Positions 9,681 to 57,535 of a stretch of 64,000 bases of DNA are shown here, piece after piece. Location of the stretch: NCBI RefSeq assembly GCF_032854445.1, contig NC_088302.1:49322046-49386045 (forward strand), read 5' to 3'. How positions within the stretch are numbered: position 1 is the stretch's first letter; each line of letters starts with the position of its first letter. Both the position numbers and the translations under genes were made by a program. The stretch is from Liolophura sinensis (lineage: Eukaryota > Mollusca > Polyplacophora > Chitonida > Chitonidae). Under the pieces are notes generated by a model. That model did not search any database. It worked only from the letters and a program-made list of their open reading frames with translations, and was not told where the DNA came from.

Positions 9681-12600
9681 TCATTTTCCTAAAGATGATT
9701 GTTGAAACGCGGAAGTTGCCTTAAACACAAGTCGGATGGTATTGCCCGAACGGTGTTTGTTAAACAGCTGGCGAAGACTGTCGGCAATTTCCAGCAGATC
9801 TTCTTGAGACTCTTCCTCAAAATCTTTGTCCATTGGCTCGCTTTCCAGCTTGTTAGCCTCGTCAAAGTTCGAGGTCACATCTGAGATTTCAGCAAGCGTT
9901 GGCATGACACTGAATTCTCCCTTTAATTTGCCAACCTTTGTCTTTGTAGAAGAGCTTTTCCTCGGCGATGAAATGCTTGCTGTTCTTGCGGTCACAGCTT
10001 CCTTCACCAGACCTTGCAGTTTTATGTACGGTTGATCGGCCCCCGAATCATCCGATCCGGGATTCAAAATCTTTTTCTCCTTTAACTTGTGCATTAGGGC
10101 GCTGACTTTGCGTTTGATTTGTCTGTGACCTTCACCAAGCTCCCTGACATAATGGAAAATGGTTTCGGTATGAGTACATATAAAGTATTTAAGAAAGAAT
10201 GGCTGCATTCACTGCGTATACGCTGTAAAAACTGCAGTAAATAAGGAAATGTCCATTGTTATTTCTATTCCAACACATCACCAGTTCACATTTTAACCAA
10301 TTTTCAGGATTTAATCCTTTTCTGTTTTCAAACTGGTACCTATTCACCTGTTTATTCTGAATATACTTCTCTTGGGTCTCATCGCTCCATAGAAGAGTCC
10401 ACTTTAAACAACCACAGGTCGATTTGTAGAGAACTAACTAGAATACCGCAAACGCGCGTGATGAGTTTCAGATATTCACTAAAGTAAGTCTTCGCGCGAA
10501 GACTTCAGTTGAGACTTTTGAGATGTTCAAGCAAAACTAAGAACAGAACGACAGACGTCAATCATGAACGGAAGCTTTAGCAAATATGGTAATATATATG
10601 GCTAGAGGTGTAGACCTTTGCATGGTCATTTGGAATAACTGGTTAACACAGCTAGCTATAGTTATATAAATGCGCATCTCATTTACCTGACCACCCACCA
10701 CCATCACTCAACCCACCAACCCTCGCCTTCACCCACCACCCTCACCCCCACACATCCACCCGTTTACATACACCTCACTCCGAGTCAGGAGGGAACTTGT
10801 ATAAGTTACTTACACAAAGTCAACTTTTCCATCGGAATTGAGGTCAAGCCTCTTCAACAAGATATCCAGGCCATGCTCTGTCATCGGAATATTAACAGCC
10901 TGTTTAACAAATTAAATTTAAAGTGTACACACATACGAGAACAAAAAAAATGTTCATTTTCCATTTTTGTAAACATTTTTGGAAAAGACAAATACTCTTG
11001 ACAAGTACTAAAAAGTATGTTCCTATTCATATTCCTGATTTTTTTTAGTCAAGCAACCCTACATATCGCTCTGTCTGCATGTCGCTCTATCTCCCGGTCG
11101 GTCCATAAGTCGGTCCGTTGACTTGACTGCGTTTGTTTAAATATGCATTATATCAGCCAGTTTTTGCATTTGATTGTAATTGAGATTTTCCAAACAAGGA
11201 TATGACATGAGTTGTATTTTTTAATAAAACTTTTTGGCAGTTTGGGCCACAGGGCATTTTTCTGTTACTAAACAACTCTCTTCTCACTGTGAATGTATAG
11301 TCAGTTGTATATCTACATAATAATGGTGCAGTAAAATTAGAACATTTTCTTATGTTTTCCAGGCATGCAGAATGGTGTAGGCCTATAGAGTAAAAAGATG
11401 GATTCTAGTACACATCAAGGTGTTGTAAAGTCACAGTCAAATAAATGTATACATGCTTACATGGTAATGCAATTCCGCAAGCCAAAAGAAAATCTTGTAT
11501 TTGTATTGTAATGTAATCTATTTGCAATGTACTTTTTGTCGTAAAATACTGTCAGCAGCAAAATATGTGTATATATATACAGACATTTAAGTAATGATGT
11601 GTTTAGCTATATGCCAGAAACAAAACACGTGTCAATTTTGTTCCCATTTTTATAATCGATTGGTTCTCAAGTCAGTGACTTCACGAACAATTTAAGCAAT
11701 CTGACTTGCAACGTGACTACGCCAAACAATCAGACATCAAGGAATCGCGAGCGTCTGGACACGATAACCCGTAACTCTGACTCGCTTGGAGGCCAATATT
11801 TACTAGACTCTATGCATAAATAACCATTTCGCTCGGTTGACTATGGCTGGAGTCGTTTTTTCGGCTGCATCAGAATGTCAGGATGTTTGACAGGAACCCT
11901 GAGAGGTGCGGAGGTTATCTTGGAGCGTCCCTTAGCCAGACCACCGCTTTATAAATAACTGTAGTGTGGTGTAACATATTGACCAATAAATGAATAAATA
12001 AACTTATAAGTAAACAAGTTGTTCAATTCATTGCTCGAGTTAAGCTGAGCTGTTACAAAGTAAAATTACTACTTTTCACAAAACACTACACTACAATGAA
12101 GTGCTCTTGAATACTGCGAAAACTACCGAATAAATAAATGAATGATCTCTTTATGTATTTGGTTGTTGTTCAACGCCATATCCTCAAGAAATTTTCACTA
12201 ACACTGTCGTCATTTGCATGGGTGAAGGAAACCAGCGTACCCGGGGTAAACCTCTAACCTTTAGCAAGCTTCCGACCAAGTATCTCACCTATGACACATA
12301 TGACAAACGGCCACACGCGTTCCGTCGATCGCTTATTGTCACAAAGGGGCAGTGAAAGCGAGGAAATATGCAAGTTCCCTGTCCAAGAATAAATAAACGA
12401 ACGAAAGAATAATTTGAAAAGTAAACAAATACCAAGAAGCCATCCCTGAATTCTTGTCTCGTCAGGTTGTCGTCCTTATTCACATCAAAACTGCGAAAGA
12501 CGTCAATCAATCGTAGATTGTCTTCTTTCATGTAATGGTATAAAATCATCAGTGGGTCGAAATGTTTGAAGTCATTTCCATGGGGCTCTTTGCGTATGTC

Positions 12601-13107
12601 ATTCACCCGGAAGAGCATTCCGTGTTGCACGGACAGGGTGCGAGAGCCCTGTATCTCGGTCATAAGATCATGGAACTTGTTATCAACCGGCACATCCTAC
12701 AACATGAAAAGTGTTATTGTGATGGCACCACTGCTACAAAGAAAATTTGCATGAAAGATGTCATGCAAGCCAAACACCCTTGTTAATTTTAAATACTGCA
12801 ATGTATTCAAGTTTTATAAACTGCAGATATAGGAAATATAATTATTTTATTAACAGTTATAGCTTCACAGAATCGATGATAACGCCCGCCTTAAAAATAA
12901 AAGTCCCCCGTGGAGGAGAACTTAACGTGCTAACGCAACGCAAAGCCTCTCGCCAACGCGGATGTGCTAGTTCCCTCTCAAAGTCCTGCGTGAGGAAGTC
13001 TGCTAGCAACCCATAGGTTGTACCGGATTATCAACGCCTTTCACCAGTTTTCTCTCGCCGTCGTATGAGTGAAATATTCTTGAGTCTGGCGTAAAACACC
13101 AATGACA

Positions 13108-13138
<31 letters not shown>

Positions 13139-16100
13139 GCCTTGTATAACACAAATACCTCCACCTCAACCCGACTTTGACATATTAAATTATCTATATT
13201 AAATTTAATCCATTTCCTAACACACGGTATTGCATATGCAGTAGGGGGTATATATTATGATTGTATGAAGGCGCACCGTGATGTCCAACTCAGTTATTCC
13301 GCTGGACTGTAAATCTTTCAACTTCTCCAGCAGATACATTGCCCCGTCTGTCGTCATAGGATTCAGCCCTAACCTCAACACCCGTAACGACTCGTTTTTG
13401 ACCACTCCATCGGTCAGTTTTTCTAAAGCACTGATGTCAATACGGTTACATGCCAAACTTAATTCCACCAAAGTCTGGTTGTTCGCAAGAGTGTGGGCCA
13501 TTGCTTCACATCCCTCCAAGCCGAATCCGTTCCAGGAAAGATCAACTTTTTCCAGCCGAGAATTATTCTAAGAGAAAAGACAAGAAAGGTGATAACGAAA
13601 ATAATTGAAAACTAGTAACATTTACAGTTTAAAGCCATTCCGCTTTAAGGTGAAATCAAAGACAACAGAAACCAAACCCATTGACTGATTATTGATTGAT
13701 CGATTAACTTTAACGGTTATAGTTTTAAGGGTGAAGAAAACCGGAGTATCCATGGTGAAAAACTTGCTTGGACATACATTACTTCAGTGGAGATTTCTAC
13801 TGGATGTTGTATTTAAAAGACAGATGCATTCCCACTACCTGTGTTCTCATCATTTAGCGAGACATCAACACCGGAACGATATCCACTTTATCGCCTTTCC
13901 CATTCTAACATTACCTCAGTTCACGCAGATCAGGCGGTGTGTCATCTGATGGACAGTTGGTAATATACATAAAAAGCTGCTGTGTTACTTGAAACAGGCA
14001 TTGTGCCTCTGCAATCAACACCAAGTGTGCATGCATTCTCATAGATATTAACGCCATCTTCAGAAGCCTGACAAGCAGGGTACTTCCCCACTTTACGACA
14101 AACCGACTTAAACAGTATCGCTTGCTACTTTATGCTCCTCTTGGATAAGATACCCTTCAGTTATCCTTCTTACATATTCTTCACAATACACCTACACAGT
14201 ACATTGCATACGAACCTCAATACCTTCGGCAACAGCAATTGCTCCTTTCATACGTAGGTGGTTCCACTTTAGATTTAGCTCTGTGAGGCTGACATTGTCG
14301 CCTAAATAGGACAAAAGAAAAAATAACGGTTTTTGAAGCACACCATACATTCACCCGGAATTCCAAGGTACAATGAGTCGCTTCATATAACGTGCTTCTG
14401 CGGTCGCTGTGAGTTCAAGTCCAACTCATGCTGGCTTCCTCTCCGACCGTGCTTCAGCGCGTGCAAATACTACAATAAGCTCACGATGTAAGCCTAAAGT
14501 AAATCAATTGCTTTGGGCAACTATTGCTTCAACAAAGTCTTAACTAAGTTGACACTTGTAACAATCTCATGCAGCAAGTCACATTTTGAACAGCTCTTCC
14601 AGGACAAATTGGCGAAGTGGGTAACGAAGTATATGTATGGCAGACATGTTTGTTACAAGTATATCAACAAAGTCATGCTGTTAGTAACATTTAGTTTAAC
14701 TCGTTCGGGCCAGTATGCCGATATGACTTGCGAATAAAGTCACCCATAAGTAACTGTTGTGGGCAAGTATGTGGACAAGGCGTGATGAGTAAGTCAGCTA
14801 TTGTGGGCAAGTATGTGGACATAGCTTGAGGAGTAAGTCAGCTATTGTGGGCAAGTATGTGGACATGGCTTGAGGAGTAAGTCATCTATTGTGGGCAAGT
14901 ATGTGGACATAGCTTGAGGTAAGTCAACTGTTGTGGGCAAGTATGTGGAAATGGCTTGAGGAGTAAGTCAGCTATTGTGGGCAAGTACGTGGACATGGCT
15001 TGAGGAGTAAGTCATCTATTGTGGGCAAGTATGTGGACATAGCTTGAGGTAAGTCAACTGTTGTGGGCAAGTATGTGGACATGGCTTGAGGAGTAAGTCA
15101 GCTATTGTGGGCAAGTATGTAGACATGGCTTGAGGAGTAAGCCAGCTGTTGTAGGCAAGTATGTGGACATGGCTTGAGGAGTAAGTCAGCTATTGTGGGC
15201 AAGTATGTGGACATGGCTTGAGGAGTAAGTCAACTGTTGTAGGCAAGTATGTGGATATGGCTTGAGGAGTAAGTTAACTGTTGTAGGCAAGTATGTGGAC
15301 ATAGCTTGAGGTAAGTCAACTGTTGTGGGCAAGTATGTGAACATGGCTTGAAGGGTAAGTTAACCGTTGTGGGCAAGTATGTGGACATAGCTTGAAGAGT
15401 AAGTCAACTGTTGTGGGCAAGTATGTGAACATGGCTTGAAGAGTAAGTTAATTGTTGTGGGCAAGTATGTGGACATGGCTTGAGGAGTAAGTTAATTGTT
15501 GTGGGCAAGTATGTGGACATAGCTTGAGGAGTAAGTCAACTGTTGTAGGCAAGTATGTGGACATGACTTGAAGAGTAAGTTAACCGTTGTAAGCAAGTAT
15601 GTGGACATGACTTGAAGAGTAAGTTAACCGTTGTAAGCAAGTATGTGGACATGACTTGAAGAGTAAGTTAACCGTTGTAAACAAGTATGTGGACATAGCT
15701 TGAGGAGTAAGTCAACTGTTGTGGGCAAGTATGTGGACATAGCTTGAGGAGTAAGTCAACTGTTGTGGGCAAGTATGTGGACATGGCTTAGAGAGTAAGT
15801 TAACCGTTGTAAGCAAGTATGTGGACATGATTTGAAGAGTAAGTTAACCGTTGTAGGCAAGTATGTAAGTCAACTGTTGTAGGCAAGTATGTGGCCATGG
15901 CTTGAGGAGAGAGTCAACTGTAAGACGAAATGACTCATGAATGACATATGTTTGAAACATGTAAGTTGATTTTATTGTAAACTTGACACGTTTGGATCAA
16001 CAATTAAATTACAACACTTTTTCTTTAGCAACCACTGGTATAAATTAGAGTGTGGACTGTAAAACTCACCTATCGCAGGCCCTAGGATTTGACCTCCATC

Positions 16101-19100
16101 ACTGCCCAACTTGTTATAGCTTAAATCTAGCGTTTGGAGATAATCGTTGTTCTGGAATCAAATGGACAGCATTTGTTCAGAAATCACGTCATTGACAGAA
16201 TTCATAGTGGTTAATATTAAACATTGAAAATTCAAGCGAAAACATTTCACAAAGGATATAGGGTCGTTTTCTTAAAAAAAAAACTATACAACACTATAAA
16301 ATACAATAAACATCAGACATATTCGGCAAAACGTTGGCAAATTCTAAACAATAAAATGGTTTCACATGGATATGCGTAGAGTATAATGTGCTGCTCTAAA
16401 AAAAATCATCAAACGAGATTCAGAAATAGCATGTGAACAAATTACCAACTTTAGCTTTCGAACTGTCAGCTTTACAAGTGTATCATTTATAAATACATTC
16501 CTGTAGCAGTTAAATAAATGCGTCCTCGTGTTTGTAGTAAAAAAAAATATGTTTAGTAACCGAAGAGGAATGTTTATTAAAATAAACATGATAATGGGGT
16601 GGATACTTTCGACAAACTCAAATATACTATTTTAAAACAAACACATATGTATAATTTACATGTACTGTTTAAACACATTTACATCTTTATCGGCCTTTTT
16701 CACTTAATAACACAAAATTATGTTTACGAAACTATCACCTCATTAGTATGTAAACATTTCACTTCAGTTACTAAACATATTAAATTATTATTAAGCACAA
16801 GGACGCGTTTATTAACCGTCACAGAAATTTTTTGTATGAACAAGACTATGAACAATTTATTTTAGAGTGTAGCAATAGCCTTGATGCTTATTCAAGCATT
16901 GCGGCGTGGATACCAATTTGCTTTCACACAGTGCTGGTAATGAAATTTTTTGCTGGTATAATTCCATTTCAACCTGGATTGTCTGCACATGTAAATGTTG
17001 AATGAGCCATGTCTTCCACTTACAGCGATGATATCAGCAAGGAATGGTGCGTGACCGATGTCGAATTCATTACCTGTGAATAGCAATATTATGGATTACC
17101 TAAAAATTACCATAATGAATAATTTGACTAAACGTTAGTTTCTTGTTCTGTATACGAAAGGGTGGTGTAAAACTACAATGACGGAAACAGGCATACATGA
17201 AACCTGATTTAATAACTTAATAAGTAGATCTAAATAACTTCACTTGACAGTATCGAAATATATATGCCTTATGTGGATACAAGTACGTATTCTGTAACTC
17301 TATTCATAGGCGAGATCACCGTCGTATCAGTGAAATATTCTTAAAAGAAAAGACGACACTAGATCAAATGGACATATACATCGATAAAATATCCCACATG
17401 AAGTCTAAAAAGTAAACCTTTTTATTCTTGTGATTTTGCACAACTTAGATATCGTAAACTATACTAGTGCTCAAAAGAAAGTATACACCAAAACAAATAC
17501 ATAAAAATCGCGCAAAGTAAAAAATTGAGAAATTATCCATGATGAGCCCTATTACCCGTGTAAACGCCGATCCATCCAGGGAACAAACTGGCCCAACAAA
17601 GCAAGATTTGCCTAAACTTAGCATAAAATCGAAAAATGGCCCTTCCACGTGTAACACGACATGAACGTGCATTTTGGCGGTATAAATGAGTCGACGGGAA
17701 ACGTTAGGAACACAGTCGTCAGAAAAACACCAGAGATATGCCACGTTTGAGCCAAGTTGAGAGAGAGAGAGAGCTGTAGGCATGGCCCAGCAAGGAGCGA
17801 CCAACGCCGCCATTGCCAGAACCTTTGGTTGCACAAGAGCAACTATCGTCAGACTTATGCAGCGACTCCGGCAGACAGGCGTTACATCCGACAAGCCTAG
17901 GAGCGGTCGACCACGCGTCACCACCCCCGCTGAAGATCGACACATCCGGACCATTCACCTCCGCAATCGGAACGTAACGGCAACGTCAACGGCGGCGACG
18001 GCACTAGGGCACCCGATTAGTCGACACACAGTCTACCGTCGACTACGTCAACACGGTATTAGGGCACGTCGACCGTATTGTGGAGTTTATCTGACGCCTC
18101 AAAATCAACGTCGTCGGCTGATATGGGCCAGGCGCGTTCTACGCCTGGCAGAGGCGTGAGTGGGCACGGGTAATGTTCTCCGACGAGAGCAGGTTTTGCG
18201 TGTACAAAAATGACGGTCGGGCTAGGGTATACAGGCGTGTAGGGGAACGTTTGGTGCCAAATTGCGTTCAGCAAGTTCGAGCGTTTGGAGGTGGTAGTGT
18301 GATGGTGTGGGGAGGCATCTGCGGCGATCTGAAGACGAGGCTGGTGGTGATTCATGGGAACCTCAATGCTCGCAGATACACGGATGAAGTTTTACGACCG
18401 GTTGTAGTGCCATTCATCCACCAACAGCAAAGAGGAATTTTGTACCAGCATGATAATGCAAGACCTCATACTGCAAGATTGACGAACAACTTACTACAGA
18501 ACGCCAACATCGATCTCTTACCATGGCCGGCATGTTCACCCGACCTCAATCCAATTGAGCACTTGTGGGACCACCTGGGCAGACAAGTCAGAAGACTGCC
18601 AGTGCCACCTGTGACCGTTCAACAGCTGGAAGAGTGTCTCCAATAAGAATGGCAACAAATCACACCTAACGTCATTCGACGCCTGACGTCATCAATGCGG
18701 CGACGTGTTGTGGCCTGCATCAATGCCAATGGAGGCCACACTCGCTACTGAGCATGATTTGAATGACATTTCCAGAGGGAAAAATGCTTCATTTGAATTT
18801 TGCAAATGTGTAAATGTTCTGTTGACACCACATCTCTTTGACTGACCATCAAACCAAACCTTCACCATTTAATGAACTGTATGTATGGACGTTTCAGGTG
18901 AAATGGAATATTCTTATGGAATTAAAAATAATTTCAAATATATTTCTTTCCGTTTTTATTTGATGTCTGATCAAACAACTGTATACTTTCTTTTGAGCAC
19001 TAGTTTATATTTAGCAAACCAAGCACACTTAGAATACAAAAGCGCCGACATGTTATCATTTATAACCAATGGGTTACAGGTTGTTTCTATAATCCGATAA

Positions 19101-22100
19101 TGCAACTGGTTCTGTTTACAACACCAGAACCCTGCGTTACCTGTTAAGCATTTGGATGTGGAGTTGGTGTAACGCTGCATCTGGGCAAGTACACATAGGC
19201 CTACACACAAAATGAAACTAAATAAATTATTTTTTTTTGTCTTTTAAGTGAATATGTTTAAACCTCAGCTTAGTCTTACTTGAGAGATTCAGCACTCTTA
19301 ACGAGTTGCTTGCTTTGATTACAGCTGACAGCACCTTTAGACCATTCTTTCCAGGATTGGTTGACGACAAATTCTGAAGATAAAAAGACACAGCGAAATG
19401 TATTTCGCTTTTATGTGGCAGTCCAAGCCGGTGTTCACACTTATCGATCAGAAGAGCATGCAGTAATAATCATACCTTCCTTCAAATTTAATACAGAATA
19501 GCGTCATCAACAATCGTTAAATTATCCGATTAGCCGATGTACAGTTTGGTTGATTTTGATGAGTATTATGGTTATTTTTAATCAATGTGTCTGTACCTAT
19601 ATAAGTTCACCAATAAAACAACTTAGAAAACATGCGGTCATGGATATAATTCCTGACAATTCTTGTTCAAACTCAACAGCCAAATCGCCATGAATATGAT
19701 TCTTCATCATATGCAAGACATTATAGATTTTATTGAATTTATTTTCTTTTTTTTCAAATGCCAAACACATAACAGTGTTAAGTTAATTTAAATATCATTA
19801 ATTACATTCTGTACTTACTATTTCTGTCAGGAAAGAATTTTCTTTCAACACTTGGGCCACGTGACTCGATCCGGTTGGTCCCAATTGGTTGCCAGAGAAA
19901 TCGAGTGTCTGAGCAATGATGTTTTTCTGAAATAAGCGAGATTTTGGGGAATGTAAGTCGTCTGGCAAATAGACTGCTGTCCATCATTCTAAACATAAAC
20001 GCTCTGGAAGAATGACAAAGCCTACATGGGTTTCCAGATAATATATCGCTATTTAAGACAGTGAAAGTTTAGTACAGGCGTAGCAGCTTGGCCCAGGCTG
20101 CTACTAAGAAAACCACAACAAGATTGGTTAATTAAAAAAGGCAATTTCAGTGAACTGACGGTTTACTTGCTTACACACTAATCTCCATGCGATCACCTTA
20201 GGCCTTACTTTAGCCTAAGCCCTACACAAACATGGTATTTACATGCACAGTGCATACCCTTTTCAAGGTGGTCAACTAGGGGAGGAGTATTTATTTATTT
20301 ATTTATTTATTTAATTGGTGTTTTTCGCCGTACTCAAGAATATTTTACTTATACGACGGCGGCCAACATTATAGTAGCAGGAAACTCACGACCGTCCGCA
20401 GCCTGCTGGAAGACCTCCCGCGTAAGGCCGGAGAGGAATCCAGCATAAGCTGGACTGCATTGTCGAGAGACCCCTGGGTCATTACGCTGCGCTAGCGCTC
20501 TAACCAACTGAGCCACGGAAGACCCCGAGGGGAGAAGTAGGTAAATTAAATATTCAGCGATAACTGATAACTTCTCTTGGTCGAAATGAACGCGTGTAAC
20601 ACACTGGTGACGTAAAAAGCTCACATATGTATTACGTCACATATGTCACAAATGTCAGGAGAAAAATAGGCAGATCGCACATTGTATATATCATATACAA
20701 TATATACACACATACATATACACATACTAAAACTCAACAAATTTTTTTAAAAATCTTGGAATGCATTATTTGCAATAATTTCTCTGCAGTGTCTGTTGCA
20801 TTTCTAACAGGTCACCATTCAACGCTCAGGTGAACAAAGAAATGACTCACAGCTGGGCACCGAACAATTTATTCTGTGGATATCCCTTAAAAGAGACTAC
20901 CGGGTCACGTGATCCGTGATACTTGGTCATTGACGTCAAAGTCTGAATGCTACATGTAAAATGTAAACAAGCCTTTTACGATGTGTGTATTATCTGATTG
21001 TTACAGATGTGGCCCATCAGTTTGTAACATGTGTTTTCAACTTCCGGTGTATAATTTTTCCACGTAAGGTTATTTATTTATTTATTTATTTATTCGTCTA
21101 TTTATTTCTCTTAAGTTTAACGTTATGTATGTTTTTGGTATGTATTCATTCGGATGTCGATGAATCGCGACTTTATGTAATACTTGCAGCGTTGTGTAAA
21201 GAACTAGCAACATGTGAAGTGTTACCTCACATCTAACTTAGTAAAGTACGCCTTGAGTTAATACGCTTGTATACATGTAGCTATGGCACGCTCAGTAGTG
21301 ACTGACCTCCAGAACAGAGTTGTTCTTACCACCAATACCACAGCGATAGCTTTCACTTCCTTGGGGATGAGCAGTTTGTTCCTCAGATTCACATTCGTGG
21401 TGTTGGCGGCCATTTGGCGGGCAAAGCTCTCCACCGGTGTGAGGCGTAGATCTCTGCAGGCTGCCTCGTACACTTTCCGATAGTTTAATGTGGGGTCCAT
21501 CTCTTCTGCAACTTCCTCATCTATAATGAACGCAAATATTTTTCAGTGACGAATTGTTTCAGTGTGATAATGTGATTTATGTGGAACGTGACATTTTGTT
21601 TAAATCTTGTCTTCAGTCTCTCTTTATTTTTACAGTTCATGGAAATATGCATGGCAAACGTTTAACTGTAAACATCTCCTACTTTATGTGTAATTATGAA
21701 CAATAAAAAAATTGTTGAAGTTTGAGTGCTGGTACAAATTTATTCTATATCACTGAGATTCAATTTTATTTTGTATCACAAATTTTGCGCTATGTCTTTG
21801 AGATACAGTTTTATCTTTTATCTTGTCTATTGCGTATATATCGGATGGGCATACAAAAATGGACCGTACTTTGACACTCATCATGATATTCTACCTTGTT
21901 TTACTTGAAAAGGTGACAAATTCCTTGTCCACCGCAGAAAAAACCATCTTGATTCAGCAAAACGTGTATGCCTATCTGGCAGAACGGTTTCTTTAACACT
22001 AAAGGCAGACATTTTTTCCAAACACTTGATTGACACGTGTCACACAGGTGCAGAGCGCTCTCTACTCATAACACCCGACAGGTCGTGCAGTGTGTGTCAC

Positions 22101-23555
22101 CGGCACGTGCGTTTTTAAGCCAATGTTTTCATTTTAACCCTGTGTACAGACTACTCAAGCTATGACCTTGAAAGCTGGTATGTTAACAAAATCATGCCAT
22201 ATAAATATCTAAAGTTTGAAAGGGTTTGAACAAGGGATAATGGAGCAATGCAGCATCGAAAGTACGGCCCATTTTTATGCCCACCCGATATATCAGCTTA
22301 AATTACATAATATGATGAATTTATGTGGGAATGACTTAAAGCATTTATTATACTTTCGGCTGGGTTTTTACGTCTAAAAGATAAATACAGTAAGTCCAGA
22401 TCAGTAAGGGCATTTCTCTCTTTACCATAAACATCACTTAGCTCTGACCCGTGCAATGCTGTTAAATGCAACTACAAATCTAATCCCCCAGGCCCTTTTA
22501 TAAATCGTTTTTAACGAGAAGCTGTTTTGTACAGAAGAATCCATGAAAGGAAAACTGTTTCCAAACAAAAAAGTCTCATTTCTTTACCCTTGCCCTTTTG
22601 ACATATTGCGATCAGTGCTCCCTGTTGGGATTTCTGCCGTTGAAGAGCGTGTTTCCATTCAGAAATATGAGACTTTCACACTGGTTACAGTTGTGAATCA
22701 TATTTCAAACCATACAAATTATTTGTAAACAAACATTAGTTGCGTAGTCCTTCATGTTATACAGTCAAATTCCTTTTCATTATTTTAGCTGAAATTGGTT
22801 GTACAATAACAATAAGCTGATACCATTATGATCACGGTGCTTGGTTGGGGGTGGGGGGAGGGGTGGGGAGGGGCGGTACGGGGTAAAATGCTACAATTTA
22901 AGCATTTACGTGAAAAGTTAGATTCACTGGAAATCATGTGTAAACTATCAAACTATCGTCACTGCTTGATTTATTTATTTACCTATTTTTGATTGATGTT
23001 TTACGCTATACTCAAGAACACTTCACTTATACGACGGCGGGCAGCATTTTGATGGGAGAGAAACCGGTATGCCCGGTGAAATTTCACTGCTCTGAATTTA
23101 CTGTCAGTACTGCAGTCTTTTATATATAAACATATCTTCAATACTAACGTTACTTCAACAATGTGGGCGGCAAATAAAATAATACCAAAGTGTGCGTGGG
23201 ATCAATACTCACCGTCGGACCATTTGTCAAAGTCATACTCCTCTTCAGGGGAATCGCTGGCACTGAAAATCGGCGTTTGCGGGAGCGAAGGTGACGTACA
23301 TTTAGGTGGAGATTTGGACTCCCATCCATGTCGACGAGGCACATGCACATTTTTCTTAAGGTCTTGTACAGGAGATTTCGACGGTCGGTATTTCTCTGGT
23401 GCAGATTTACATCTTTCACTCTGGTCTTTTGTCGTTCTCTCTAGCGGTTTGCGCTCACCCATTCCTCGTCTGTATCGAGGTCCACTTTGAATACTTGACA
23501 TGGGCCGCCATGTTGTCTTTACTGGGGGATGTCGACTCTTGGAATTTGAATCCAT
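9681..23555 (-). CDS. LRRC74A-like leucine-rich repeat/EF-hand protein, tandem copy A (11 coding exons)
   Basis: The coding exons are 23213-23555, 21330-21520, 19819-19926, 19280-19373, 17024-17073, 16070-16151, 14216-14301, 13277-13567, 12433-12696, 10814-10899 and 9681-10143. They join in frame to 685 residues, starting at the ATG at 23555. Residues 1-178 comprise a basic N-terminus, an acidic PEEEYDFD patch at the end of exon 1, and a helical segment. Residues 179-415 are ribonuclease-inhibitor-type leucine-rich repeats with LxLSxN and LNLKWNHLR motifs. Two EF-hand loops follow, at about 486-497 (DVNKDDNLTRQE) and 522-533 (DLNSDGKVDFVE, split by the last intron). The charged tail is longer than in B or C. 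The order of segments matches vertebrate LRRC74A as I recall it. A cytoplasmic calcium-responsive scaffold is an inference. The donor at 14215 (GTTCGT) is weak. Exon 13277-13567 is split in B and C. An upstream non-coding exon is possible. Confidence 0.9.
10685..10785. repeat. C-rich low-complexity tract
   Basis: About 100 bases of CACC/CCA-rich sequence (ACCCACCACCATCACTCAACC and similar) in the last-but-one intron region of copy A. G is very scarce on this strand. Confidence 0.7.
11830..12262. mobile_element. Diverged SINE-like remnants in intron of copy A
   Basis: Two old fragments lie in the intron between exons 10814-10899 and 12433-12696. One, on the plus strand, ends in CCAATAAATGAATAAATAAA (about 11990-12001). 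The other, on the minus strand (about 12128-12262), has CAACGCCATATCCTCAAGAAA and a GAAGGAAACCAGCGTACCC block. Both are too diverged for firm family assignment. Confidence 0.4.
13040..13139 (+). mobile_element. SINE tail with (AAAT)n extension
   Basis: The tail of the common SINE (GTCGTATGAGTGAAATATTC, GTAAAACACCAATGACATAAA) running into about nine AAAT units. It is intronic in copy A. Confidence 0.75.
14398..14460 (+). mobile_element. Short SINE head fragment
   Basis: GCGGTCGCTGTGAGTTCAAG plus CATGCTGGCTTCCTCTCC, i.e. box B and the start of the SINE body only, intronic in copy A. Confidence 0.6.
14735..15925. repeat. 44-bp minisatellite, about 27 copies, in intron of copy A
   Basis: The unit is AAGTCAGCTATTGTGGGCAA then GTATGTGGACATAGCTTGAG then GAGT. 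Some units lack four to five bases in the GAGGAGTAAG part. Variants (GTCAACTG, GTTAACCG, AAGCAAG) occur in blocks, which suggests local duplication. It fills most of the intron between exons 14216-14301 and 16070-16151. Confidence 0.95.
17460..19007 (+). mobile_element. Tc1-type DNA transposon in intron of LRRC74 copy A
   Basis: The element spans about 17462-19005 with a TA at each border. The terminal inverted repeats include a perfect 24-bp match (17463-17486 and 18981-19004; the right end reads GTATACTTTCTTTTGAGCAC and on). It encloses a single transposase gene on the plus strand, opposite to the host gene, in the intron between exons 17024-17073 and 19280-19373. The perfect 24-bp inverted repeats next to a broken transposase suggest insertion not long ago, with later decay of the coding part. 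Confidence 0.93.
17738..18751 (+). pseudogene. Broken DD34E Tc1-type transposase
   Basis: The first part has a paired helix-turn-helix DNA-binding region (AAIARTFGCTRATIVRLMQR) and a GRPR linker. The catalytic part has the first Asp in SDES, the second in DNARPH and the Glu in PDLNPIEHLWD, with 34 residues between the last two acids. Three lesions are visible. A GA-dinucleotide run at about 17759-17773 throws the true start (ATG 17738) out of frame. A one-base shift lies near 18150, just before the first catalytic Asp. An in-frame TAA at 18644-18646 cuts about 35 residues before the final TGA. The gene cannot make an intact transposase. Confidence 0.9.
20278..20539 (-). mobile_element. Full-length SINE with target-site duplication
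   Basis: The minus-strand element at 20290-20527 is flanked by AGGGGAGGAGTA and AGGGGAGAAGTA (one mismatch). It includes the tail, body, box B, and the head reading CCGTGGCTCAGTTGGTTAGA on its own strand. Intronic in copy A. Confidence 0.85.
21836..22293. mobile_element. Non-autonomous DNA transposon with about 38-bp terminal inverted repeats
   Basis: The left end ATATATCGGATGGGCATACA continues through AAAATGGACCGTACTTT. It mirrors the right end AAAGTACGGCCCATTTTTAT followed by GCCCACCCGATATAT. The interior shares blocks with 40831-41410 (CTACCTTGTTTTAC, GTACAGACTACTCAAG, TATGACCTTGAAA, AACAAAATCAT), so both are copies of one family. This copy has lost nearly all transposase sequence. It lies in the first coding intron of copy A. 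Confidence 0.8.
22845..22880 (+). repeat. G-rich tract, G-quadruplex candidate
   Basis: GGTTGGGGGTGGGGGGAGGG continues with GTGGGGAGGGGCGG. At least four runs of four or more G separated by single bases can form a quadruplex. Because gene A is on the other strand, its pre-mRNA would carry the C-rich version. Confidence 0.7.
22972..23080 (-). mobile_element. SINE 3' fragment, minus strand
   Basis: Tail and part of the body (TTTACGCTATACTCAAGAAC, ATACGACGGCGGGCAGCATT). Intronic, just downstream of coding exon 1 of copy A. Confidence 0.75.
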
Positions 23556-25529: not shown

Positions 25530-25665
25530 AGAGACCCACGACCGTCCGCACATTGCTGGACGACCTTCCCACGTACGACAGGAGAGGGAGACAGCATAAG
25601 CTGGACTTGAACTCACAGCCAAAGCATCGTTGAGAAACTCCCGGATCAGTGCCTCACCCATGGTG
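25530..25665 (-). mobile_element. SINE head and body fragment, minus strand
   Basis: ACCCACGACCGTCCGCACAT through AGCATAAGCTGGACTTGAAC to the box-A region. The 3' tail is missing. Confidence 0.75.
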
Positions 25666-45927: not shown

Positions 45928-46176
45928 TTTGATTGATTTCATTGATCGGTGTTTTACGACGTACTCAAGAATATTTCACTTATACGACGGCCAGCATTAT
46001 GGTGGGAGGAAACCGGACAGAGCCCGAGGGAAACACACGGCCATCCGCAGGTGGCTGGCAAACCTTCCCACGTATTGCCGGAGAGGAAGCCATCATGAGC
46101 TGGACTTGAACTCACAGCGACCGCATTGGCCCCTAAGTCATTATTCTGCGTTAGCGCGCCAACCAACTGTGCCATA
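45928..46176 (-). mobile_element. Full-length SINE, minus strand
   Basis: Tail, body and head in order (CGGTGTTTTACGACGTACTC, CCAGCATTATGGTGGGAGG, CTTGAACTCACAGCGACCGC, GCGCGCCAACCAACTG). It lies at the 3' edge of the Penelope-like remnant. Confidence 0.88.
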
Positions 46177-46239
46177 TAATTTCATATTTCGTTAGTATAA
46201 GTCTAGAGTTCTCTATTACTATGTCAATCCGAGGTCAAG

Positions 46240-48054: not shown

Positions 48055-48510
48055 GTCTAGAACATGTTCCCTCAAGACTGATCCCTTTATGTGGATATTG
48101 AGATCGCGTTTCTTCAATCGCGATCTCTTTCCCTGTATGTTTAGAACGTGTTCCCTAAGGAAATAATCTCTTCACCCAGATGTTGAAAAAGTGTTCCCAC
48201 AAGATTAACCGCTTTCCTTTGATGTTGAGAACGTGTTCCATTAGGGCTGATCCCTTCTCTTGGGTTTTGAGAACGTTTTTCATTGGGACGGATTCCTTTC
48301 CGGGACTGATCCCTTCCATTGGATGCTGAGAACGCGTTCCCTTAGGACTGATCATTTCCCTTGGGTATTGAGAACGTGTTCCCTTAGGACTGATCCCTTC
48401 CCATGGGTGTTGAGAACGTGTTCCCTCGGGACTGATTTTTTCCCTTGAGTGTTGACAACGTTTTCCATCAGGATTGATCCCTTCCTTTGGGTGTTAAGAA
48501 CGTTTTGCTA
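48055..48510. repeat. 42-bp minisatellite, about 11 copies, just past the copy C stop codon
   Basis: The unit is TGAGAACGTGTTCCCTTAGG then ACTGATCCCTTCCCTTGGGTGT. It begins about 50 bp beyond the TAA of copy C and so probably lies in its 3' UTR. A period of 42 is a multiple of three, which explains the stop-free stretches on both strands. These are not taken as genes. Confidence 0.92.
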
Positions 48511-48559
48511 CAGTATGTCTTCTACTGGTCTCTGTTTAACGTATTCAGACACTAGCAGC

Positions 48560-51500
48560 TTATATTTTGCTGTTTGATTCGTCGATGTGTTCTTCAACCG
48601 ACTTAGCATTTTCAGCATGTTTCATGGTCTCTTCCACTGCCTCCGCAAGACCCTTTATGCCCCCACTCTGAAATGTTTGAGAATACACTGTCGTGTCCAC
48701 ATAGTTGGGGTTTGCTTTCTGTGCAGCCTTACGATTCAGTAGATCACGGTGAACGCGTCGTTCACCGTCAATCAGTTCACTGTGAAGATAGAACGTCAGC
48801 GATTATATATTAAACCATGACAAATTTGCAACAAGTTTTTGAAGCACATTCATTTGCTGTCAAACAGCGGAGATGAAGTCATTAGAAACTTGCTATGCTC
48901 CTAAAACATAACAAGATGAGCACGACGAGCATCAGTAGATGAAAACACAATGCTTAGAAAAAATTTAAATTAGTAACAATAATACATTGGCGAAATATAT
49001 TCTTAGCTTATCTTGTCATATACTTTTGTGCAGGCAACCAAACAACAACAATGTCCGTGTGGGCATGATTGGTGGCTGTATCAGTTAAAGTTCTATATTA
49101 TGTACAGTGTACGTCTAGTTAATTCTTACCTTAGATCAATGGCCCCGTCTCGGTTGGTGTCTAGGTACTTCATGATCATGTCCATAGCTGAGCTACTTAC
49201 AGGAACGCCGTGTTTCTTTGAAAAGATAAACATAAGTAGTAAAACATGTTTATGTCTAATATTATCCCGTGACCATCTACCTACCATGACGTCGGGGAAT
49301 CTGTTCGCTGGAGATAGAATGACTGGCGGATAGATTAAATATCCATAAGAACTTATCGATGACATAACAATATGATCAGAAAATTCCTCCTAAAATACCA
49401 GCAAAACAGATAAAGCAAATGAGTACCAAACACGCGAGCCAACACTTGTTTTAGTTCAATTTAAGTTAATTTATTTTTTACAAAAATCATTATGTGAAGC
49501 ATTGTTCAGACAACAATCTGTTATTTTTTTCTGGTACTGGCGGAGGGGGGGGGGGGCGTATTTAAAAAATGAATGATTCAAATTGAAAAATTACATCAAG
49601 TTAAGGAAATGATGTCAGAACTCACATCTAATGCTTTTCGAATTTCGGTCCGGCTCAGGTCGAAGCTGTCGTCTTTGTCCATTTGTACTAACATGTCAAT
49701 ACACCTGAGGTTTTGTTTCAGGAGGTACAGCAGACGCACGGGGTCCACGTTGATGACATCGGGACCGTCATTGCTCTCATCCATCAATTGAGACCACTTG
49801 TCGCGGTGTATCGGCAAGGATTTGTCATATAGCACTGTAATGTCCCTCTTACTCCGCAGGTTGTCCAACAGCTGTTCAAATTCAGTGTCCACAACAAGAC
49901 CCTACAATGCAAAAATGTTGATGGCAAAGATTAGTGGTCGCTTGCACAAAGTGATCGTAGCTTAAGTTGATTTAACCACCACAGCAACACAAGCTTCTCA
50001 CACATGCGGTCAATGTAGTTACGTTCAACTTACTCTGTACTCTGTGAGAAAACGGCACTATTCCTACAGAAACGATATGTCATAATGAATACTTGGCTGC
50101 ATGTATTCAGTATATGTCATAATGAATACTTGGCTGCATGTATTCAGTATATGTCATAATGAATACTTGGCTGCATGTATTCAGTATCCACACTAAGACT
50201 CTGCAACGCAAAAGTGACGATGGTAAAGCCTAGGCTTAAACAAACTGTATTTGATAATGAATAGTTGCGTAGATTCAGTATCGACTACAAATTTTGAAAC
50301 GCAAAATGACGATTGTATAGGTTAGACCTATACAAACGATATTCGGTGATAAATAGTTGCATGGAATAGAATGCCCTGCATTCTTAAAGGGTTTGTTAAA
50401 GTACTTGCATACTTACCGATAAGTCGAGCAATGTCAATGCCATGGTTTTACACTTAGCAATGAGTGTGAGGAGCGGACAAGTGTAATACACGGGTATAGG
50501 ATTATAGCCGAGCTGAAAGTAAACATACAAAAAGTGTCATCCTCGGAAAGGCCATAGATATGTAATGGGTACTGCCTTAGCCACGGATATATGCCAATGA
50601 AAGTACATGTTATTTAATTAATATATGTCTAAGGCACGTTACATGCATGTGCATTTTAACCTGCTTTCTTTAAACTAGCCAAATGTAAATCTCATGTGCG
50701 TTTTGATTGCTAGGGACATTTTACTGTAAATTTTTTTCCGGAATTCCGGAATCTCAATTTCGTGCGTGTTTTGCGTGGAGAACCCGGGAATCTTTTTAGA
50801 GCAGTAGACTTCAAAGCTAGATGTCGATTACATTCTCAAAAGCTCTTGTGTGGCGTAGCAAATTTGTGCTTTAAATTTGTTTTTTCTTCCATCTGTGATT
50901 GTAGAAAGAGCAGATACAGCGAATTCATACGTTTTATATGAATGTATAATACGTGTTATAACGAATACTCTTGATTAATATTGAAGCAGTCACCTTGAGT
51001 GTAAGTAAGGTTTTGTTCTTCAGCATGTCCGACATGAAGTTGAACAGAGCCGGGGGATGGATTCTGTTGTTGGAAAGGTCCAGCTCCAAAAGCGTGCTGT
51101 TATGAAGCAAGGCGTGCCCCATGGCTAGGCTTCCCTCATACCCGAACCCATTCCAGGCGGCGTTAAACACCCTCAGGTTAGTATTCACCTAGAAATCAAA
51201 ATAAAAACGTCACCGTAATGTTTTTTAAGTTTGGAAACTGACAAAAATACGGCTTGATTTATGAACTTATGTTGATTTAGAAATACTATTTCCTCCCGTC
51301 TGGACTGACAAATCACGTACAGATTTCCCCATAGTAGCTCTGTTATAGGTTGCCCAAACCTAAAGACAGTCACTGATTCGCCATTTTTATGTAAATCACC
51401 TTTGCCTTCATTTAGTTTGCATAGCTCATATGGCAGGGATACACTATCCATGATACTGCCAGTGCTCTTAAAGATAGGTTTGTGTACTTTATCATAGGTA

Positions 51501-54500
51501 AGAACACAAAGCTGGAGGCTGGAGTTTCTGTCCTAAAATCAACATTTCTTTTCATTTTTTTCACCGAAAATCAGCAATTGTTGTTTCCCTGTTCATTATA
51601 TTTAAATCTACCTCAAAACTATTTAACCAAAAAAAATGAGAAATTTTGCGACAATTTCATTCTTAAGGCGTGTGACCAGCTCAAAAGCACATAATCATTT
51701 GAGTGCAAGAAGAGCTTCCCTATAGTGGTGTAGAAGCACGTTAGTTGGACTTTGATCACTTACGCTGACACCGTTTGATAAGGCAACAGCACCTGGGCCA
51801 CGGATATGGTTCCAACTGACATCAAGTATATCCAAGTTATCGTTCTCTCCTGCATCACAAGAAAATGACATATAGATATGTGTCGTAGATAGTAAGGATA
51901 TGGCGTAAACATATATTTCGAAAGGCATTATATTAAAACACACAGACAAGCCTAGACAAATGAAAAAAAGAACATACCGGTAACACGTTAATAGGTACAA
52001 GCCAAAATACCAATAATCAACTAAACAAACATTCGGGTTAATGATATTTTATGCGCCGTATGTATACTTGGGGTTGAACGTCGTACGTTTAACGTCGCAA
52101 TTTTTCAATCATATGACGACGAGCAGTCATCCGATGTGTGTGGATATATTGTGTCTTCTTGTAAAAGGGCGAGCCCATGCCGCCAAAGTGCTTCCGTCAC
52201 TGAAATGCCGAAGCACCCAGTCACATTATACTGACGTCAGCCCAACCAGTCCTGTTTTTTTTTCGCGCCAACCTCACAGTGCTCAACATCAAGCGAGGCA
52301 GCAGCAAGCACTACTTTAAAAATTGTTTAGTATGACCCTATAGGTGTTTGATCTCAAGTCTCCCGACTTCTGAAAGCTATGTGAGTTTAATAGCGCAAAT
52401 TATAATATTCATAAATATAATACGTACGTGTCCGAGCGGCCGAAAATGACCAATATAAGCTTACCTAAAGCTTTTGCTATCATGATTGGCCCGTGCTCCT
52501 GGAGCTCGTTTCTTGCCAGACACAATTCCTGCAGACTTGAATTGTTCTGAAATACAAAAATGTAAAACATCTGTTCAGTACTATATTTATTTATTTGACT
52601 AGTGTTTTACACCGTGGTGAACATCTGACTTGTATAACGGTGGTCAGGTTTATGAGTGGACAAACACGGAGTACTCGGGCTAAACAACCACCTTTCAAAA
52701 GGTTACCTGGTAAACCTGACTCAAAGCCACAGACCAAACAACGACAATAAGATAGATAGCGTCAATGTGCATGAGCAAAATGGGCCATACGTGGTATAAA
52801 CAGAAGCGCATGGTCATATGCTACATTAAGGACTTGGACAAAGGCCAAGTATTCAGCCCAGGTCTAATTTGCAGCTGTCTAACTTATTGGATTCGAGATC
52901 TTGATCTCATTGGCAACAGTCACAGCGAGTCGCCGCTCCATCCGTCCGAGCCAGTGATAACACAGTTCAGTATTACGATATGTGTTAGCAGTATTATACA
53001 TAAAGAGTCTTCCCGTCTCTCTCTATTTTTCACAAACGTCGTCTTGACTGATCTAGGTTAGACCACTAACCATCGACCAATGCAGTCGTGAGTTCGAATC
53101 CGGCTTCCAACTGATCAGCTTAGACTTAAAATCAGTAGATCTGTCAGGTGTCTGCGTGCTGTGATAAAACCACTCCAGATGCCATGAGAAACATGGGATC
53201 TGAGCTTGGTGAGAGATTTAACACGTTTTTACTGAAAACCACTGGGAGGAACCATGTAAGCGCATGTCCAAGTATTGTAAGATTTACTGTGATGTAAGCC
53301 AAGAATTTTGCAGTAAATATTTGGAGGTCTGATTCTTTGTCTATCTATAAAACCATGACTGGTCACTGTTCAGTGTGTTCCTCCCAATACACCTGACCTC
53401 AGTCATGTAATAGGAGTAGAATTTTAGTCACAAAAACACAAATAGAACATAATCGTTCAAACGGGAAAAGGTTACATGTAGTTTCAGCTATGTGTAGGGA
53501 AGAGCTTACCTGTATAATGTTGGAGATTGATTTTCCATCGTCATCGGTGATTTTATTACCTGTACAAACGGAAGAAAAATGATTCTGTTATTTTGTAATA
53601 TAAGCCATCATATTCTTATATCTGTTTAATTAATTTTAAAAAAAACAGGGTTAAAGTTCATGTTAGCGTACAGTGAAGAGATACGTCACCATGGCATATG
53701 CGCTTGGCGTAACATTCCGACGGCTTTGTAAGGTGAGCCTCATGCATTGAAAACAATACCTACACTGACTATACTTTATACAAAAGTAGGAGACATTCCA
53801 GTTACTTTTGATGTGCCTGAAAATACGATTGTATCAATGTAACTGAATGAGACATACATTTTGACTTTTGGCAGGGGTTTTGCATGACAGGAAAATAAAT
53901 CTCGTTGGGGTGCAATTAGAAATTCGCACTGGAACTTGTCAGCCTGTAGTCATATATTTGACGCAAAATCACATTTAAAACTTGTCATTTTATCATTTTC
54001 CACTAACATTGCAATATTGAGATATTTGGCGTCTTGTGATGATAAGCGTCACTGGCAAGACAGGACGTGTTGGTACGTACAGTGATACTGTGATTTTGAA
54101 CATTACACCGTCAGACAATTAATGGTGGTGGCAAATACACGTCAGTTTTAGAGAGCTACTGTGTGAGAGTGAGGCACTTGTACTATATGTAATCGGCTAT
54201 ATCCATGGAACTTCCCTTCATCACATTACTTAAAGACGTCGATGACATGAAGAAAAAATCGTCGTTAGTGCCATGAGGAAAAATCGTCTCCGGATTAGAG
54301 TGATTTTTTCGGAAGAATCCGGATTCACGCTTGTCAGTGACTGCAATGACGACGAAATGGGTGGCGCATAGGGTCAATGTTCGACAGCAGTCATTTTCAG
54401 GGGGCGTCATTGATGGTGTGGAATGGGATCACTATCTTTACATGTTATGTAGGTCCTATTGACACTTGAATGACCAGCTCTAGTAGAATCTCTCCATTTC

Positions 54501-57500
54501 TGCATCCTCTTGTGAGTGGGTTTGTCTTACAAGATGACAGTGTTAGAGAACATACTCACCGTTACTACCTACTTTCAACAAGAATTCATTACAATTTCAC
54601 CATGACCAGAACTAAAGTTCGCCCAAGGTTCACTGGTCCTACATGTCTGAGATATGGTTTGTAACATTAGCATCGACATTAGCAATAACTGCCACATTGA
54701 GTGTTTCATAATGAAAATAAGCTTCGACCAATTTGTGAATGGCTTGCGAATAGAGGACGATTCACGCGATATTCACGACTTGGTTAGTGTCGTGTTGAAC
54801 TCTCTTCGGGTCATTTTCCGCTCGCCACTTCATAGCTATGACGGACTTACCTTCACCTAAGACCGCATTTTTTGAGTGTTATTGATAAACTATTTATCTA
54901 CTAAAAGATATCGAATATTAATAGCTAGAGCTCAATTCTAAAAAAAAACTTTTATCAGTATTTTTCTTCACTACAATATTATTAAAATCTTCAACTTTTA
55001 ATATCTTCATTAAGTTTGACAGGTGCATTTATTTATAACGTCGAAATGTACAAACTGGCGGTCATTTCTTGCTTTTTTGCGGATTAAAGTGAAGTGAGAT
55101 CCTTAGTTCTGAATCACTCACCTGAAAGATCGAGTTTAAAGAGTTTTAGGTTCCTGTTGCTAATTATGTGGTGTGAGAGAATAGCCAGGGCTTGACCATT
55201 AATATTGTTGTCCGCCAACACCTGTAACATAACAGCAAAGATATTTTTGCAAAATACCCGAGAGAAACTTGAGTGAATTAGTGCTTTCACTACATGTACA
55301 AATGAAAAAATGAAACGTATTAAAACAGCCACAGTCCGTTTTAAACAGCTACATCGGTTCTAAGAGAATCGTGACTTAATTTTCAAAATAACGAAGAAAA
55401 TTGATTGATTTCTTGATTAATTGATTGATTGCTTAGTGATTGGTGTCGTGCTTTAAGTTTTTTTCACTGATATAAGGGCCACCGGAAGTATCGTCTAGGA
55501 AATCGGAGTGCCCAGTGTCTACCTCCGCCATTTGCCAGATACGTAAAAAACGTCTTAACGCTACCCACGCCGACACGGCGTGAAATGGATTCGATCCTGC
55601 GACCTTCAGGTCCTTGGTCTGATAGCCACATCGAGTCAGCGTTTTAATTATCTTCGTCAATAACATAGACGAAGACGTACGAGGTGGACATCGCGGCACA
55701 GTTCAAAGCGATTTACCGGACTCACCAGATTTACGATCCATCTGTTCTTCCGCAGAAGCTGAGTAAGATAAGATATCCCTCTCGTCTCTAGACCATTGCC
55801 GGATAAATCCAGAGAGATTACGTTGTCCATATGCTTCAATATCAAACCATCGATGCAAGAGAATTTTTTTATATGTTCACTGTATATTAAAATTCAGTCA
55901 AGCATGTACATACACTCAAAGGAAACGAAGCTCCTCGTAATGACAGTTAAGAAGTTTTAAAGTTATGAGTAGTGCAATATATGAAAAGAAGCCAATGGTA
56001 TCCGTAAGAAGCAACCAAAGTTCACAGGAAAACACTGAAAAATACTTTAATGATTTACACTACACAAATATTAAGCGGACTATGTTATATTTTAAACGGT
56101 GCTATGAATGGTGGATATTTGTCTCAAAATTGTCATTTGTACAATAAGCTTTTTTAGCACTTTCAGCTTGAGAACTGACAGGCAACTCACCACTAAACAT
56201 GCACAGATGGCTTTGAAGGCTTTCCTGGTGAAGCCTACGTCTTTCAAAGTGATAATGTCATCACCAATCTGATCCAAGAACCTCGCTAAAGGCAGGACGT
56301 TTTCCCGTTCGCACGCCTTGCGATAGTACCCTTTGATGACGTCTGATTGTTTTAGGTTTCTAGGCACGAGGGACCAAGCCGGCTTGCGATCATCTGGAGA
56401 AAGAAACAGGTGCATCAGTAAAATATCTGACCCGGAGTCTAAGTCAAAGGGAATTCTGAATAAAACCACAGATTTCAAATACACATGCACAAATCTGCCA
56501 ATTAATCTAGAGCCCTGGATGTACATGTACACGGTACGACACGTCAACTGAACCGAAACGGGTTCCTGGGCATTGTTATTGATTAAGGCATAATGTTTCA
56601 CCTAGTAGAAGAAATGTTCAGAAAGTCAGAAAACAGTTCTGGCTGTGTAATACTGACAGCTCATTTCTTATTAACTTTTTGTGTGAGAAAATATTTAATT
56701 TTTGGAATTTGCAAAAAGTTCAATGTAGACTTGTATATAAAAATTTAACGCCAACCCCAAACTTTTTGTCACTTTACTGGAAATACTGCTTTACTGCAGT
56801 ATCTCTCTGAGATGTGCAGGAAGAAAAATATATTTTGTCATTTAGGCACCTTTGGGACCTTTAGGTAATTGGAACCGAATCTGTTGTTCATTTTTGTCCT
56901 TGTGGTCAAACTGATGACTTAATATTCATGAGTTGCTAGAAAACAATGCTCAATCCAGCTTGGTTTGGAGCCGCCATTGCGGGGAAATCAATTAAGAAAT
57001 TGTATGAAAATCCAACATGAAAGCATATTTAACTGTGTGGAATTAATTATTGACACACTGGTTAAAAATCATTGACTGAGTAGACTATTATACCAAACTT
57101 GGGTTCAGGCAACAGGGCAAGCTTTAAAAGTCGATATCCTTCATTCTCTCAAAATGCACGTCGCCAACTGGAACATTCACCACCCGTGTAACATCCCAAT
57201 GCCATTGGCTTAGACGTCCAGGTAATTAGAAGTCCCTGGGAAACAAATTAGCCTTAAGAGCGAAAATGACAACAGAAAGATGGCTCACCTTCGTCTTGGT
57301 CAAAATCATAGTCATCTTCTGGATTGAAGTCGGACAATCTCTGATCATTGATACGTGGTGATACTTTCGCCGAGTTCTCCTTTATCCGTGGAAGTATGAA
57401 GAACTCCGAGACTTTCTCACTGCGGAAGTCGGGCACGTTACCAGCAAGAGCTGAAGAGCTACTTCCCTTTATTGACGGAAAGATGACAGGGTCTGACAAC

Positions 57501-57535
57501 ACGGCAAAGTCAGTTTGAGGCCTCGGCGTTGACAT
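48560..57535 (-). CDS. LRRC74A-like leucine-rich repeat/EF-hand protein, tandem copy C (12 coding exons)
   Basis: The coding exons are 57289-57535, 56191-56393, 55726-55833, 55122-55221, 53510-53559, 52465-52546, 51764-51849, 50994-51188, 50417-50512, 49626-49901, 49130-49215 and 48560-48779. They join to 582 residues from the ATG at 57535 to a TAA. The N-terminal exon ends in an acidic PEDDYDFD patch like that of copy A. RNLKQSDVIKGYYRKACERE lies in a helical linker. The leucine-rich region covers about 151-389 (LDLSGNGLETRG, LDVSWNHIRGPGA, FNAAWNGFGYEG). EF-hand loops are at about 464-475 (DKDDSFDLSRTE) and 500-511 (DTNRDGAIDLSE, split by the last intron). The tail ends VEEHIDESNSKI. All donors begin GT and the phases agree with A and B. 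Role inferred only: a calcium-sensing LRR adaptor in the cytoplasm. Confidence 0.9.
50076..50188. repeat. 37-bp tandem repeat, 3 exact copies, in intron of copy C
   Basis: The unit is TATGTCATAATGAATACTTG then GCTGCATGTATTCAGTA. Looser relatives (ATGAATAGTTGCGTAGATTC, AACGCAAAATGACGATTGTA) continue to about 50360, suggesting an older, longer-period array. Confidence 0.88.
52061..52375 (-). mobile_element. Second-type SINE, minus strand, in intron of copy C
   Basis: Shares its body with the outer element at 61557-62110 (ATGCCGCCAAAGTGCT, CAGTCACATTATACTGACG, GCGAGGCAGCAGC). Its 3' part is the reverse complement of an ACGTTCAACCCCAAG type end. The tRNA-like head is worn. Confidence 0.65.
52586..52720 (-). 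mobile_element. Strongly diverged SINE body in intron of copy C
   Basis: TTTATTTGACTAGTGTTTTA then CACCGTG, and CTTGTATAACGGTGGTCAGG, resemble the common SINE in reverse orientation. The call is tentative. Confidence 0.4.
55396..55660 (-). mobile_element. tRNA-derived SINE, distinct head, in intron of copy C
   Basis: On the minus strand a box-B-like GGATCGAATCCATTTC follows CCTGAAGGTCGCA. The far end carries GCACGACACCAATCACTAAG and an AATCAATCAATCAA tail. The body differs from the other SINEs here. Confidence 0.6.

Follow-up and report, generated by a model that had tools for sequence, protein, structure and literature searches.

Three genes, A, B, and C, lie head to tail on the minus strand of the window, by which we mean the whole 64,000-nt stretch of DNA that was analyzed (C8:49322046-49386045). 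Assembled exon by exon, all three models are complete, extending from the start codon of C, which begins at 57535 (minus), to the stop codon of A, which ends at 9681 (minus), and they bear out the original prediction of three tandem genes on one strand. The genes and their coding exons are as follows.

9681..23555, minus: gene A, 11 coding exons, 685 aa, comprising an N-tail, an LRR domain, an EF-hand pair, and a C-tail
23213..23555, minus: A exon 1, start codon, YDFD motif at its end
21330..21520, minus: A exon 2, N-cap, YxxAC
19819..19926, minus: A exon 3, 108 bp, LRR
19280..19373, minus: A exon 4, 94 bp, LRR
17024..17073, minus: A exon 5, 50 bp, LRR
16070..16151, minus: A exon 6, 82 bp, LRR
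14216..14301, minus: A exon 7, 86 bp, LRR
13277..13567, minus: A exon 8, 291 bp, fused counterpart of B/C exons 8 and 9
12433..12696, minus: A exon 9, C-cap and EF-hand 1 (DVNKDDNLTRQE)
10814..10899, minus: A exon 10, 86 bp, EF-hand 2 (loop DLNSDGKVDFVE, with next exon)
9681..10143, minus: A exon 11, C-tail and stop

28009..37516, minus: gene B, 12 coding exons, 595 aa
37132..37516, minus: B exon 1, start codon
36647..36843, minus: B exon 2, N-cap
36305..36412, minus: B exon 3, 108 bp
35393..35486, minus: B exon 4, 94 bp
34423..34472, minus: B exon 5, 50 bp
33634..33715, minus: B exon 6, 82 bp
33303..33388, minus: B exon 7, 86 bp
32672..32866, minus: B exon 8, 195 bp
31965..32060, minus: B exon 9, 96 bp
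31313..31573, minus: B exon 10, C-cap and EF-hand 1 (DRDGSRSVNHKE)
30237..30322, minus: B exon 11, 86 bp, EF-hand 2 (DKDKDGEVDFSE, with next exon)
28009..28156, minus: B exon 12, basic C-tail and stop

48560..57535, minus: gene C, 12 coding exons, 582 aa
57289..57535, minus: C exon 1, start codon, YDFD motif at its end
56191..56393, minus: C exon 2, N-cap
55726..55833, minus: C exon 3, 108 bp
55122..55221, minus: C exon 4, 100 bp
53510..53559, minus: C exon 5, 50 bp
52465..52546, minus: C exon 6, 82 bp
51764..51849, minus: C exon 7, 86 bp
50994..51188, minus: C exon 8, 195 bp
50417..50512, minus: C exon 9, 96 bp
49626..49901, minus: C exon 10, C-cap and EF-hand 1 (DKDDSFDLSRTE)
49130..49215, minus: C exon 11, 86 bp, EF-hand 2 (DTNRDGAIDLSE, with next exon)
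48560..48779, minus: C exon 12, C-tail and stop

All 32 introns of the three genes carry GT-AG boundaries, and none of the three reading frames, which together encode 1,862 residues, contains a stop; when the coding sequences of A, B, and C are shuffled, they hold an average of 32 to 39 stops each. Against this open coding capacity and these canonical introns, the view that A, B, and C are untranscribed or decayed copies is barely credible, even though their introns hold tandem repeats and a transposase. A, B, and C are real, intact genes of a little-studied family.

The exon sizes are as predicted, with exons 3, 5, 6, and 7 (108, 50, 82, and 86 bp) and the EF2 exon (86 bp) being the same in all three genes; exon 4 is 94 bp in A and B and 100 bp in C. 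The claim that intron phase is shared at every junction holds for the 10 of 10 junctions common to A, B, and C (phases 1, 0, 0, 1, 0, 1, 0, 0, 0, and 2), but an eleventh junction (phase 0, within the LRR domain) is present in B and C and absent from A, where a single exon 8 of 291 bp corresponds to exons 8 and 9 (195 and 96 bp) of the other two. Because candidate exons 8 and 9 are apart at all 15 other loci with this exon plan (exon 8 being apparently split at the locus on C10), the intron between them was most likely lost in A.

Several repeats and one mobile element were noted in the window.

6792-7181: about 33 copies of a 12-bp unit; each strand has long open frames here
14747-15866: A intron 6, about 26 copies of a 44-bp unit
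17761-18646, plus: Tc1/mariner-type transposase (HTH_Tnp_Tc3_2 and DDE_3) in A intron 4, in two overlapping frames and hence broken
31856-31999: perfect 73-bp tandem duplication, spanning B exon 9 at its 3' end together with the donor site
44368-45024: interval separating B from C, about 18 copies of a 37-bp unit
28229-28411, 34049-34264, 57858-58130, and others: dispersed repeat translating as ..FHLYDGGQHYGGRKPG.., also present at other loci

Relationship to LRRC74

In phmmer searches, which covered PDB sequences, the first-ranked match was in every case chain Km of 9FQR, whether the query was the core of A (E 1.8e-46), B (E 4.1e-65), C (E 1.7e-38), a profile of A-C (E 1.5e-85), or a five-member profile (E 2.8e-104, over the N-cap, LRR, and EF1), and the second-ranked match was much weaker each time. 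Axonemal LRRC34 chains were among the ten best matches of the five-member profile. The alignment with chain Km is continuous for B (146-518) and for the profiles, falls into two stretches for A, and for C alone covers the N-cap and LRR only.

The search label of chain Km is Tubulin alpha-3 chain, yet its sequence is that of an LRR protein. The 9FQR structure represents the 96-nm repeat of the bovine sperm doublet, and in its report LRRC74A is newly assigned to the N-DRC distal lobe (PMC11779644). Because chain Km has an LRR sequence and that report places LRRC74A in the N-DRC, we infer that chain Km is LRRC74A. Judged by sequence similarity, A, B, and C belong to the LRRC74 family, which is already known; among PDB sequences, no different LRR family provided the best match. 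The description of the genes as LRRC74A-like is thus right as to family and does not extend to orthology: pairing with the bovine chain is rejected for both A (p 0.009) and C (p 0.011), and for B, where the pairing is not rejected (p 0.167), the tree does not group the two.

Family size and age of the array

A search of the 609-Mb genome, in which A, B, C, and the bovine stretch served as queries, located the exon plan, mostly complete, at 16 loci on five contigs. Exons of the loci other than A-C came from a homology scan limited to lengths near those of A-C, so that the shared lengths at these loci are partly built in. The loci are distributed as follows.

C8, window: A, B, and C
C8:49387-49394 kb, minus: D, directly beyond the window end
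C8:17.22-17.28 Mb: P, Q, R, and S
C6: five loci
C10, C7, and C1: one locus each

Since D adjoins the window, the tandem array has at least four members. The 16 loci do not include weaker matches at C6:24.715, C3:14.436, C5:10.820, C7:14.083, and C1:10.824 Mb. Two single-exon LRR frames, of 476 aa (L019, C6:24.090 Mb) and 765 aa (L020, C7:50.006 Mb), match the LRRs of the family; the exon plan was not seen in either, and both were rejected as exon-plan members and left out of the tree.

Some loci have local duplications of their own. The member on C10 (L015/L016, C10:35223378-35230560) contains five exon-4-like copies in tandem and seven exon-7-like copies spaced at about 105 bp, together with repeats of the start of exon 10 that remain open. 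On C8, two copies (L029 and L030, 17474757-17479251 and 17483821-17488327) are 99.1% identical over 4.5 kb. In each there is an open exon 2 that closely resembles the one in S, although the exon in S itself runs out of frame; these two copies yielded no further family exon.

The members of the family are highly divergent. LRR-core identity among the 17 alignment rows ranges from 29 to 45%, and A, B, and C resemble one another (A-B, 36%; A-C, 33%; B-C, 34%) no more closely than they resemble the cow chain (A, 36%; B, 36%; C, 30%). In the six pairings of A-D, compared over the 232 codons of equal-length exons only, the difference is 0.68 to 0.74 at third codon positions, 0.47 to 0.59 at first positions, and 0.31 to 0.39 at second positions, showing that A-D are coding and under purifying selection. 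Third positions are near saturation, and the duplications are therefore old.

With the EF region added, three pairs are well supported in the tree, A+P (97/93), C+D (100/99), and R+S (99/97); the deeper forks are not well supported, and branches are long. A clade of A+B+C is rejected both with the LRR core (p 0.0158) and with the EF region included (p 0.0002), and a clade of A+B+C+D, at p 0.063 with the LRR core alone, is rejected when the EF region is added (p 0.006). The rows of this tree include S with a truncated exon 2, C1 without exon 2, C6c, C6d, C6e, and C1 without an EF region, and C10 with an exon 8 joined from two open stretches; masking the residues at two split codons (13 rows) left the result unchanged.

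Nor are array members simply each other's closest relatives: A pairs with P, which lies 32 Mb away on the same chromosome. Because the sister of A lies in this second cluster, we infer that an old mixed cluster was later split. A local triplication that was recent, specific to the lineage, and followed by divergence of the termini alone would account for three tandem genes on one strand with one exon plan, but it is extremely improbable in view of the low core identity, the near-saturated third positions, the rejected A+B+C clade, and the distance between A and P. The proposal of an expanded family is correct insofar as the family is large in this genome, and fails as a private triplication; the array is both older and larger than was originally held. 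As to the lineage itself, one lophotrochozoan miRNA pattern had a single, exact match, which fits, whereas two molluscan patterns had no match, so that these patterns do not show the animal to be a mollusc. A, B, and C are most likely functional, anciently diverged paralogues that form, with D, a tandem array of four or more.

The termini had been considered unrelated, and the sole site of divergence. In exon-by-exon comparisons of A, B, and C, 35 of 36 score at least 2.9 standard deviations above composition shuffles, the sole exception being exon 1 of B and C (z 1.2). That the termini are unrelated is only true in part: the acidic YDFD motif ends exon 1 in both A and C (and occurs also in the open frame preceding S), and an E-L-x-x-G-x-R stretch opens the last exon in all three genes. 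The tails vary in length and composition. With core identity at only 33 to 36%, A, B, and C have diverged beyond their termini as well. As two-thirds of the core differs too, the differences between the tails give no particular hint of partner switching, which does not follow from them.

The EF-hand pair

In all six EF loops of A, B, and C, position 1 is D and position 12 is E, in agreement with the predicted acidic residues, and all six lie in helix-loop-helix pairs with oxygen ligands at positions 3, 5, and 9. The Pfam EF-hand_7 pair is present in 3/3 genes, and the C-terminal pieces of all three exceed the curated cutoff. Across the family, D1 and E12 occur in 22 of the 22 loops located in 12 genes (12/12 EF1 and 10/10 EF2; degenerate or missing loops do not enter this count), as against a mean frequency of 0.50 for the commonest residue in the alignment. 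Since D1 and E12 are kept in family genes beyond the array, these acidic EF loops are a trait of the family and not of A-D alone.

Both loops with D1 and E12 are present at 10 of the 16 loci. The locus C7a has EF1, and the final residue of its EF2 was not located; C6a has EF1 and a degenerate EF2; C6e has a degenerate EF1, and its EF2 was not found. C6c, C6d, and C1 yielded no EF-hand in the stretches examined. In bovine chain Km, the aligned EF1 loop (NPSGEMMMPVGE) is degenerate, in line with the original view of vertebrate LRRC74A, and no EF2 aligned within the last 38 residues. Loss of EF-hands seems to have happened several times, a direction read from a tree without an outgroup.

From these conserved ligands, the EF pair of A-C probably binds Ca2+. 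That the pair is instead a structural relic, without Ca2+ binding at physiological levels, we consider unlikely: the degenerate and missing loops are what a relic would leave, as is the want of glycine at loop position 6 of EF1 in 11 of 12 genes (1/12 have it), but EF2 has this glycine in 10/10 genes and canonical residues at all ligand positions in 9/10 (the exception being D, with K at position 3), and side-chain ligands are kept while other loop positions vary freely. Because most EF1 loops do not have the glycine, the affinity of EF1 may be low. No description of an EF pair in LRRC74 was found in the literature examined, from sources available in part and in a search that was not exhaustive.

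Possible ciliary function and known relatives

The predicted protein plan comprises a disordered N-tail, a ribonuclease inhibitor-type (RI-type) LRR solenoid of one-repeat exons, an EF pair fused to the C-cap, and a charged C-tail. Like the bovine chain in sperm, the solenoid would dock on a partner in the axoneme, belonging to the nexin-dynein regulatory complex or to a comparable ciliary assembly. Binding of Ca2+ to the EF pair, in which EF2 is canonical and EF1 lacks the loop glycine, would change the contact of the C-cap or C-tail, and this change could allow calcium to alter ciliary or flagellar beating, with separate paralogues perhaps serving separate cilia, cell types, or doublets. As a whole, this explanation of A, B, and C as ciliary or sperm LRR scaffolds with a calcium-sensing EF pair, which we prefer to the others, seems to us evenly balanced between right and wrong. 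By analogy with the bovine chain, we lean toward a ciliary or sperm place for the three proteins, whereas a coupling of calcium binding to that place is doubtful. The bovine relative is axonemal despite its lost EF1 loop, and calcium would thus not be needed for docking.

Records from other species bear on this place. In the Yesso scallop, an LRRC74B-like gene is a male-gonad hub together with a testis-specific kinase and a stabilizer of axonemal microtubules (paralogue unspecified; PMC6708199), and in the annelid Urechis, LRRC74A is the top hub gene of a module correlated with telotroch cilia (paralogue unspecified; PMC10380512). In Chlamydomonas, an axonemal protein that combines IQ with LRR domains shows weak relatedness to LRRC74A (PMC11151096). 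X-box (RFX site) matches near the genes are not enriched (2 versus 2.8 expected, and 1 versus 1.4).

The three genes might instead encode non-ciliary LRR adaptors with another cytoplasmic job (ribonuclease inhibitor-like or immune scaffolding), only the fold and the EF pair being kept, and we view this as possible though less than likely. Ribonuclease inhibitor and NLR proteins, through their RI-type LRRs, match too, more weakly, and neither A nor C is a one-to-one counterpart of the axonemal bovine chain; in the surfclam, LRRC74A transcripts respond to heat, which fits any cell-biological role. However, the N-cap, the exon plan, and the C-cap/EF region are common to the axonemal chain and absent from ribonuclease inhibitor, and the LRRC34 chains among the ten best profile matches are likewise axonemal.

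If A, B, and C are ciliary scaffolds, they would bear on the long-standing question of how calcium affects the ciliary waveform. The placement of LRRC74A in the sperm N-DRC is recent, and the protein is little known; an LRR scaffold joined to an EF pair whose ligands are kept across ancient paralogues offers a direct way to ask if the inter-doublet link senses calcium. It is conceivable, if quite improbable, that ancestral LRRC74 was a calcium sensor in that link, with a many-gene EF set kept here and with mammals having kept the scaffold and lost the EF1 site. Similarly speculative is the corollary that one intact-EF gene serves each cilium type or doublet.

Among known systems, bovine chain Km shares with A-C, over 370 residues, the N-cap (YxxAC..VxPxSYF), an RI-type LRR solenoid, the C-cap, and an EF1-like helix-loop-helix, and differs in the loop of its EF1 and in having no aligned EF2; A and C are paralogous to it. 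The axonemal proteins LRRC34 and DRC5/TCTE1 are likewise ciliary and have RI-type LRRs, but they match far more weakly, and no EF pair aligned. Ribonuclease inhibitor has the same LRR repeat type but neither the N-cap nor an EF pair, and its match is also weaker. Residues 492-551 of B match the C-terminal half of calmodulins; unlike calmodulin, A-C have one EF pair only, and it is fused to an LRR solenoid.
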